Shown here: in pieces, positions 49,902 to 52,472 of the stretch
Layout: each line of letters opens with the position of its first letter
Numbering within the stretch: position 1 is the first letter of the stretch
Origin: Pontixanthobacter rizhaonensis
GTDB lineage: Bacteria; Pseudomonadota; Alphaproteobacteria; Sphingomonadales; Sphingomonadaceae
Length of the DNA: 64,000 bases
Direction: 5' to 3'
Assembly: GCF_012972675.1 (NCBI RefSeq)
Contig: NZ_JABCRE010000002.1
Location: forward strand, 361,001-425,000
The notes under the pieces: generated by a model
Told to the model about the DNA's origin: nothing
Seen by the model: the letters and a program-made list of their open reading frames with translations, nothing else
The model's database searches: none
Program-made: the position numbers and the translations under genes

Positions 49902-50643
49902 GCTCGCACTGGCGGGCATTTTTGCCGGTATATTGGCGATCTCATCCGCTTGGTTTGCAATGGATGAGCCGCCAGTTCCGCGCCAAAAACAGCAGCTTGG
50001 CTTGATGACCTCGCTGGCGATCTATTGGTCGGGCGGCGAATTGGCAGATATGCTGACAGAGGAGGGGGAGCCGCATTGGGTGCGCAGCTTCCTTGAAAAG
50101 CAATATGAACTTGTGCTGCTGGATAGTTTTGCAGCCCCAGACGGGCTGGTTCCCAATGCGCAATTGGCGGGGCTAACGCAGCTGGTTTTGGCGCAACCTG
50201 CTGCATTGCCGCCGGCAGATTTGGTCGCCCTTGATGATTGGGTCCGGTCTGGCGGGCGATTGCTGCTGTTTGCCGATCCAATGCTGACCGAAGAAACAGA
50301 TTTCGGGCTTGGCGACAAACGGCGTCCGCAAGATATAGCGACGCTCTCTCCTCTGCTCAAAAGATGGGGACTGGAGGAAGGCTTTGATCCGGCCCAGCTT
50401 GATCTGCCATCGGCAGTGCCGGTCCAAGATGAGGATCTGCCGGTTCACATCTATGGACAGTTTGCGTCCGCCGATGCCAGCGCTTGCACACTCCTTGGTG
50501 AAAGGCTGGTCGCGGATTGTGTGATTGGCGATGGACGAGCGGTCATCATCCTGGATGCGCATATGTTGGCTGCCGATCCTATCGATGCGCAAAAAAACAG
50601 GGCTTTACGCCGCCTTATGGATATCGCCTTTTCCCAAGAATGA
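49888..50643 (+). CDS. Membrane-anchored GldG/DUF4350-like protein
   Basis: 251 residues from GTG 49888 within the upstream gene. One membrane helix (LALAGIFAGILAISSAWF, about 5-22) anchors a soluble domain with a Rossmann-like pattern: LLDSFAAPDGLVP, LVLAQPAALPPADLVALDDWVRSGGRLLLFADP (about 90-125 region) and AVIILDAHML. This resembles the GldG/ABC-transporter auxiliary (DUF4350) group; the match is my recognition of pattern only. The stop is immediately followed by the phased GGGAW array. Confidence 0.7.
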   Translation: MRRSKLALAGIFAGILAISSAWFAMDEPPVPRQKQQLGLMTSLAIYWSGGELADMLTEEGEPHWVRSFLEKQYELVLLDSFAAPDGLVPNAQLAGLTQLVLAQPAALPPADLVALDDWVRSGGRLLLFADPMLTEETDFGLGDKRRPQDIATLSPLLKRWGLEEGFDPAQLDLPSAVPVQDEDLPVHIYGQFASADASACTLLGERLVADCVIGDGRAVIILDAHMLAADPIDAQKNRALRRLMDIAFSQE

Positions 50644-50652
50644 GTGGATTTC

Positions 50653-50741
50653 GGGATGAGACGGGAAAATCGCGGGTTCCGTCGTTCTGATCCGGGATTT
50701 TGTGGGGATTTGGCGGGGATTCGGCGGGAAAAACACGGGAT
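50653..50741 (+). promoter_or_regulatory. Helically phased GGGAW array (eight units), likely MraZ operator
   Basis: Eight GGGAW/GGGTT pentamers on the plus strand start at 50653, 50663, 50674, 50694, 50705, 50716, 50726 and 50737; one turn (near 50684) is empty. Total 84 bp over eight turns gives 10.5 bp each, exactly one DNA turn. Known MraZ boxes are direct repeats of a GGG-centred pentamer with 5-nt spacers. Binding here is inference. Confidence 0.7.
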
Positions 50742-50826
50742 TTGGGCAATTTTGAACAAATTTCGGGCGCTATTGGACTGAGTGTTAAGGATAATTAAGC
50801 AATAAAATCATATCTTTAACGCGCTA

Positions 50827-50860
50827 TCCCCAATGATCCCTTAATTTCCCCTAGTATCCC
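50827..50860 (-). promoter_or_regulatory. Four-unit MraZ box (GGGAW, 10-bp period)
   Basis: WTCCC occurs at 50826, 50836, 50846 and 50856, i.e. GGGAW with 5-nt spacers on the minus strand. Format and number of repeats match the described MraZ binding site, about 150 bp before mraZ. Opposite in orientation to the upstream array. Confidence 0.75.
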
Positions 50861-50891
50861 TGCTTTTCACCAGTTAGAACCGTATTCCATC

Positions 50892-50904
50892 AGACAGACT
50901 GTCT
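50892..50904. other. 13-bp palindrome in the mraZ leader
   Basis: AGACAGACTGTCT is a perfect inverted repeat with a central A, 103 bp before mraZ. Possibly an operator; the loop is too short for a hairpin. Confidence 0.3.
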
Positions 50905-51006
50905 CGTGCCGTGTTCAGCCATGCTGGGCAAGCTACCCGTTCTTATGCGCGGGTGGAAGCGGGAAAGTCATGTCGGAGATGTGGTGCAAACAATCGAGGG
51001 GGCGAA

Positions 51007-51525
51007 GTGGCGGGAGCGCTTCAACATAAATATAGCGGACAGGCCCTCACCATGCTCGGTGATAAGGGTCGTTTCGTCTTGCCCCCGGAATTTCGCAACA
51101 CAGTAAAGCTTTCCAGCGAAGGCCGCACATTGTGCCTCGTTAAAGATGAAGAGTTTGATTGCCTGGTCGGCTTTGGTCTGTCCCGCGAAGATGAATTTGA
51201 AGATATGCTGGACCGCGAGGAAGAGCGCGCGATCCGTCTCAATCGCGATTTCAGCCGGTTGAAGCGGTCCAACCAGCTTTACGGCTATAAGAAAATCCCA
51301 TTTGACGATAGCGGCCGGTTTACCATGCCGGACTATTTGCTTGGTCTCGCAAACATTACGGACTCGCTCTATTTTCAGGGTGCTGGTTCTTCCTTCACAG
51401 TTTGGAATCCAGAAGTTCTCGCCCGTCAGGATGATGGCTGGAGCAATGCCAAGGCCGCCTGTGCTGGGATGGTTGCAGAAGCTGCTGCCAAGGCGGGCAA
51501 AAAAGCAGGCGGGAAGGGCAAATGA
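51007..51525 (+). CDS. mraZ: Transcriptional regulator MraZ
   Basis: DNA-binding AbrB-like regulator at the head of the dcw cluster, 172 residues. It forms rings in E. coli and binds its own promoter. Two SpoVT/AbrB-like repeats are visible: [20 protein letters not shown] and [19 protein letters not shown] (about 95-115). GTG at 51007 has GAGGGGG just upstream; an earlier in-frame ATG at 50911 would add 32 unlikely residues. The C-terminus is Lys/Ala-rich. Overlaps rsmH by ATGA. Confidence 0.94.
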
Positions 51526-52472
51526 CCTACGCCGCTGACACCGTCCCGCATATTCCCGTCCTGCTCGACGAGGTAATCGCCGCGTTGCATCCGCAGCCGG
51601 GTGATGTGATTATTGACGCCACATTTGGTGCGGGTGGATATACGCGAAAACTGCTCGATGCGGGTGCAACCGTTCATGCATTCGACCGTGATCCTGATGC
51701 GATTGAAGCTGGTTCTGCCTGGACAGAAACCCAAGAAAGCCCGCCCCGGCTTATTCTTCATGCCCGCCGGTTTTCCGAAATGGCGACGGCAATGGCTGAA
51801 GCTGGCGTTACCAAGATTGACGGCATCACGATGGATATTGGCGTATCATCCATGCAGCTTGATCAAGCAGAGCGCGGCTTCGCGTTTTCGTTCGACGGCC
51901 CGCTCGATATGCGGATGTCGCAAGAGGGTGAAAGCGCGGCGGATTTTCTGAACTCGGCGTCTGAAACTGCGATTGCGGATGTGCTCTATCACTATGGTGA
52001 AGAACGGCAGTCGCGCCGGGTTGCGCGCGCTATTGTCGCTGCGCGCCCGCTGGAAACCACTGGCGAATTGGCGCGCGTGGTGCGTAAGGCGCTTGGCTAT
52101 CACCCTGGCGCGCCGAAAGATCCTGCGACACGTAGTTTTCAGGCGATCCGCATTCACGTGAATGCAGAGCTGGACGAGCTGAAAGACGGGTTGGCCGCAG
52201 CCGAGCATTTGCTTGGTGAGGGCGGCAGGCTTGCTATGGTGAGTTTTCACAGCCTGGAAGACCGGATTGTGAAGCGCTATTTGCGAGAGGCGTCTTCCAC
52301 CGGTGGCGGATCGCGGCATATGCCCGTACTTGACCGTGCGGCACCCGTTTACGCATCGGTTTCCAAAGCCATTCGCGCGTCTGACAAAGAAGTGAACGAC
52401 AATCCGCGCAGCCGCTCTGCCACATTGCGCCATGCCATTCGCACCGCTGCCCCTGCACGGGAGGTCGCGTGA
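51522..52472 (+). CDS. rsmH: 16S rRNA (cytosine(1402)-N(4))-methyltransferase
   Basis: Methylates C1402 of 16S rRNA, 316 residues. [10 protein letters not shown] (about 10), the SAM motif [11 protein letters not shown] (about 33), [18 protein letters not shown] (about 106) and [16 protein letters not shown] (about 242) are all intact. Translationally coupled with mraZ and ftsL. Confidence 0.97.

Follow-up and report, generated by a model that had tools for sequence, protein, structure and literature searches.

The MraZ box of Escherichia coli was reportedly described by Eraso et al. in 2014. The sequence upstream of E. coli mraZ (NC_000913.3), cagtgggaaattgtggggcaaagtgggaataagggg, contains one plus-strand box of GGG-centred units at 10-bp steps, which ends about 10 nt before the start codon. 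The MraZ box of Burkholderia cenocepacia comprises four repeats with a 10-bp period over the start site (PMC7761207), and an MraZ box has also been reported in Mollicutes (Fisunov et al. 2016, cited in PMC8475190). Repeats of 10-bp period and a ring-shaped MraZ are features of both of these boxes and of the MraZ complexes 9sz7 and 9r4j; the available portions of these sources describe a single box, located at the promoter or start site, and mention no upstream array, register or IHF site. In other Alphaproteobacteria the box consists of three to five plus-strand CCCAT units. Many of these (seen in loci L127–L192) have a TTGAC-N17-TAT promoter visibly woven into the box, so that repressor ladder and core promoter use the same bases, and upstream arrays are very rare there (0/22 in the class sample). 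A literature search found no paper on sphingomonad mraZ promoters.

The locus described here lies within a 64-kb window, the whole stretch of Pontixanthobacter rizhaonensis DNA that was analysed. It shares the repeat period of the boxes above, but differs from E. coli in that the box is on the minus strand, about 150 nt away from the start codon, and that an array of opposite polarity lies further upstream. The box (50828–50860, minus strand) consists of four GGG units, each exactly 10 bp from the next, upstream of mraZ (GGGATACTAGGGGAAATTAAGGGATCATTGGGG), where at least three are expected of an MraZ box. It is the sole minus-strand run of at least four units in the window and was absent from the initial annotation. 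Among 94 relatives from the same family, 93 have a recognisable box. Its polarity is that of the CCCAT boxes, and similar minus-strand GGG ladders are frequent across other Alphaproteobacteria; the difference from the plus-strand box of E. coli is one of lineage, and polarity is no published criterion for an MraZ box.

The box overlaps the predicted core promoter. A predicted −35 element (50851–50856, plus strand, CTAGTA; family consensus CTTnCA) is woven into it, and a predicted −10 element (50874–50879, plus strand, TTAGAA; family consensus TTAnnA) follows after 17 bp. The box columns, the CTTnCA within them, the 17-bp spacer and TTAnnA keep fixed spacing in 90 genomes, and the two central −10 positions are T in 98% and A in 100% across the family. 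Read as −35 and −10, the two conserved elements would place the box on the −35.

The auxiliary array (50653–50741, plus strand) begins directly after the stop codon, at 50643, of a DUF4350/ABC_transp_aux gene and lies 266–354 bp before the GTG start of mraZ at 51007. The initial annotation placed an eight-unit GGGAW array here, ahead of mraZ, and the sequence bears this out: units start at 50653, 50663, 50674 (GGGTT), 50694, 50705, 50716, 50726 and 50737, with steps of 10, 11, 20, 11, 11, 10 and 11 bp and one empty turn. Two further GGG trinucleotides (50744 and 50765) do not keep the phase of the array and lack a following A. None of 20,000 dinucleotide-preserving shuffles of the surrounding 184 bp (50644–50827) gave eight phased units; the longest run was five, reached five times. 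The array is the sole plus-strand run of at least four units in the window. The pattern GGGA-N5..8-GGGA-N5..8-GGGA has seven matches in the 2.79-Mb genome, five of them upstream of mraZ (three in the array, two in the minus-strand box), and 12 of 15 matches in eight genomes of the genus are likewise upstream of mraZ.

With eight GGG units at 10–11-bp steps upstream of mraZ, the array resembles an MraZ box. It is, however, classed as auxiliary because it lies approximately 145–235 bp before the predicted start site, away from the core promoter. The suggestion that the array itself is the MraZ box was discarded, since a conventional four-repeat box is present 90–120 bp downstream on the other strand.

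Array and box are built from a common unit: a G/C base, GGG, A, then A/T. The A following GGG is present in 92% of array units, where A or T had been required, and in 89% of box units, where nothing had been required, and the two unit profiles correlate at 0.81 outside the GGG. The A/T positions that follow GGGA are weakly conserved in relatives (0.26, 0.17, and 0.07 bits). Given the match between the array unit and conserved MraZ box units, MraZ is the most likely ligand of the array, as judged from sequence. In loci L142, L146 and L131 the box has T before GGG and the auxiliary units likewise have T; across the core genomes, covariation of this base between box and array is weak (r=0.25) and is not treated as main evidence. 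L131, from another family of the order, also carries a second CCC ladder in the orientation of its MraZ box; this lies approximately 195 bp further upstream and forms an auxiliary array of different arrangement.

The product of mraZ (51007–51525, plus strand) has an MraZ domain (Pfam MraZ, 25.2 bits; cut-off 23) and a double-AbrB-like fold, with a DKGR and a DDSGR motif, one in each half. Its predicted model (pLDDT 90) matches solved MraZ structures in Foldseek (E 1e-8), including the cryo-EM complexes 9sz7, 'MraZ in complex with 4 box promoter', and 9r4j, 'with its promoter'. It is considered a divergent MraZ because the NCBIfam MraZ equivalog cut-offs are missed widely (49 vs 162 bits). This divergence is a trait of MraZ in the family, whose members are missed by the NCBI equivalog models, and one relative has two mraZ-like genes (G243:C1:1286441 and 1886254). 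The gene that follows in the division and cell-wall cluster, rsmH/mraW (51522–52472, plus strand; Pfam Methyltransf_5, E 2.7e-88), is retained in three genomes, each 99% complete, from one genus of the family (L200, L201, L202; 2.1 Mb) in which mraZ was undetected and neither box nor array occurs upstream of rsmH. Loss of mraZ together with box and array fits an MraZ operator, in what is a single AT-rich genus.

Of the 94 core relatives, 74 have a plus-strand pair of GGGA motifs at a 10–11-bp step upstream of the box, compared with 3.4 expected from shuffles, while a minus-strand pair occurs in only one of the 94; the orientation of the array is therefore fixed. The shuffles and the relatives together rule out chance as its source. 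Outside the core, phased pairs were detected in three of 20 distant family members and two of 20 genomes from other families of the order. The box is present and the pair undetected in approximately 20 of the 94 core relatives, and the array is therefore not essential. Distances between G-runs in the 94 genomes peak at 10–11, 20–22, 30–33 and 40–43 bp, in agreement with the helical phasing proposed in the initial annotation. The conservation in relatives that it called for holds for phasing and presence, but not for the number of copies, which ranges from one to eight with a single pair as the most frequent state. Eight is indeed the longest strict run found, followed by seven and six, and if all units in one phase are counted there are nine in two relatives and eight in three others. 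The exceptional length attributed to the array is thus the extreme of a continuum, and the idea of a unique eight-copy element was dropped.

In 93 relatives, the stretch between array and box holds 137 GANTC sites, the targets of CcrM methylation, about double the 72 expected. They peak 130–150 bp before the box anchor, and the window has an example at 50718. The excess arises in part because GGGATTC contains GATTC.

The array lies 110–190 bp upstream of the box, and its distance from the box is quantised. Taking the conserved CCC of the box as reference, and one value per genome for the array unit nearest the box, this unit is found at approximately −110, −121, −132, −143, −155, −165 or −176 (±2), with almost none between. 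The resulting register (R=0.77, 73 genomes) exceeds the maximum of 0.37 reached in 5,000 random rigid shifts. It hardly changes when each genus is represented by a single genome (R about 0.77 for 36 genera, against a shift maximum of 0.61) and recurs in the same phase in 16 held-out genomes (R=0.84). Measured as controls, the mraZ start codon gives R=0.06, and the upstream gene's stop codon R=0.18 in the register-tested genomes. Pairwise alignment of the linkers for indels met with sequences that are too diverged, and the fixed-length window makes gaps cancel. Linkers from different genera do not align, and it is therefore unlikely that part of the register was simply inherited from a single long ancestral array whose linkers acquired few indels.

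Between array and box is an IHF-like site (50806–50818, plus strand, AATCATATCTTTA). The consensus for IHF is WATCAANNNNTTR, of which the site matches eight of nine specified letters; it is a predicted site, identified by sequence match. The family pattern, AATCA.....TTA, is placed 22 bp before the first box unit. At exactly the offset seen in the window, at least seven of nine consensus letters are found in 50 of 90 relatives, compared with 0.75% at other offsets. Conservation is only moderate, as the remaining 40 relatives score below seven. The site is present in 47 of 73 genomes with the GGGA pair and in 10 of 20 without it, nearly as good a representation, which makes it independent of the array; it may therefore also serve the promoter by itself. 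IhfA and IhfB are both encoded in the genome.

Between promoter and mraZ, a structured 5′ leader RNA of approximately 92 nt (50888–50979, plus strand) begins at the predicted transcription start, near 50886, and contains three covarying helices. Its double-sided changes number 58; shuffles give 18.7 and slid controls no more than 23. The RNA was observed in the mraZ leaders of core-family loci L002–L122, and its covariance model matches the mraZ leader in 20 of 21 core-family loci left out of model building. The model gave no convincing match in the distant family members or other families searched (best E 0.34), and Rfam has no match for 50888–50979. A leader RNA, UpsM, occupies the corresponding place in Rhodobacter (PMC5089854), a likeness of position alone. 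The covarying mraZ leader RNA is unreported.

A repression loop would require just such an arrangement: an array inverted relative to the box, held in register with it and separated from it by an IHF-like bend. Loops of this kind with separated operators are known for lac and gal, and IHF-bent promoters are known among sigma-54 promoters. The mraZ locus resembles these in that its two operators stand apart, in helical register, on either side of a bend site; it differs in that the ligand would be MraZ, that each operator is a ladder of direct repeats, the two having inverted polarity, and that the loop is predicted from sequence. The best reading of the locus, with a probability slightly above even, is a bipartite MraZ operator acting as an IHF-assisted repression loop. 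MraZ would repress its own cluster from the minus-strand box over the −35. A box-bound MraZ ring, or ring pair, would use its free subunits to grip array units upstream; a ring not filled by the four box units, or two stacked rings, could hold array units simultaneously. IHF would fold the DNA back between array and box, and the closed loop would give tighter silencing of the promoter than the box achieves by itself, such that the division and cell-wall cluster would be repressed as MraZ accumulates. More array units, as in this genome, would be expected to raise local MraZ occupancy and ease loop closure.

It is rather unlikely that the array instead binds another protein, an activator touching RNA polymerase or MraZ across the IHF bend. 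Activator architectures typically have such an upstream distance with an IHF site between, so the layout of the locus is typical of an activator, and the need for a particular face of the helix would produce the register and fixed orientation just as a loop would. However, the array unit matches that of the MraZ box, no candidate regulator was found, and a separate regulator would usually have other targets, whereas the tripled copies are nearly confined to mraZ. If MraZ is accepted as ligand, the array could still be an extra site that acts without looping, titrating MraZ or nucleating its binding, with units gained and lost. The wide variation in copy number, from one to eight, speaks for such a site, and a ring contacting several units at once would need them phased. 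This phasing is internal to the array, though, and leaves unexplained why array and box are separated by whole turns across very unequal linkers; the unlooped site is accordingly judged unlikely.

Two further explanations have very little probability. The window's array copy has A/T stretches every 10–11 bp, as would be expected of phased A/T tracts in intrinsically curved DNA with GGG as a mere separator. Relatives keep GGGA and conserve the following A/T positions weakly, a unit profile that disfavours A-tract curvature, and several of their pairs, for example GGGGatggtgcGGGac, have no A tracts; we give curvature little credence. Equally improbable is that the repeats are due to chance or are decayed and functionless, their register inherited from an ancestral array with little indel. 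The divergence of the sequences, too great for reliable measurement of linker indels, leaves some room for this. Against it stand the 74 of 94 genomes with a pair where 3.4 were expected, the upstream stop codon, whose distance covers almost the same stretch and is out of register, and the agreement of the held-out genomes.

The IHF-assisted loop, as the preferred reading, bears on a general feature of MraZ. MraZ is among the most conserved bacterial regulators, and the three or four boxes usually present cannot occupy every DNA-contacting subunit of its rings. A second array of up to eight units in register with the box makes it possible to test directly whether spare subunits bridge DNA, and the series of copy numbers among sister species, from one unit to eight, is a ready-made titration. 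In sphingomonads, an MraZ ring would shut the division and cell-wall cluster by reaching across an IHF bend to bridge two operators whose polarities are opposite. This would be the first looped MraZ operator, with the number of array units setting how strong the loop is in each species, a proposal for which we consider the chances evenly balanced.
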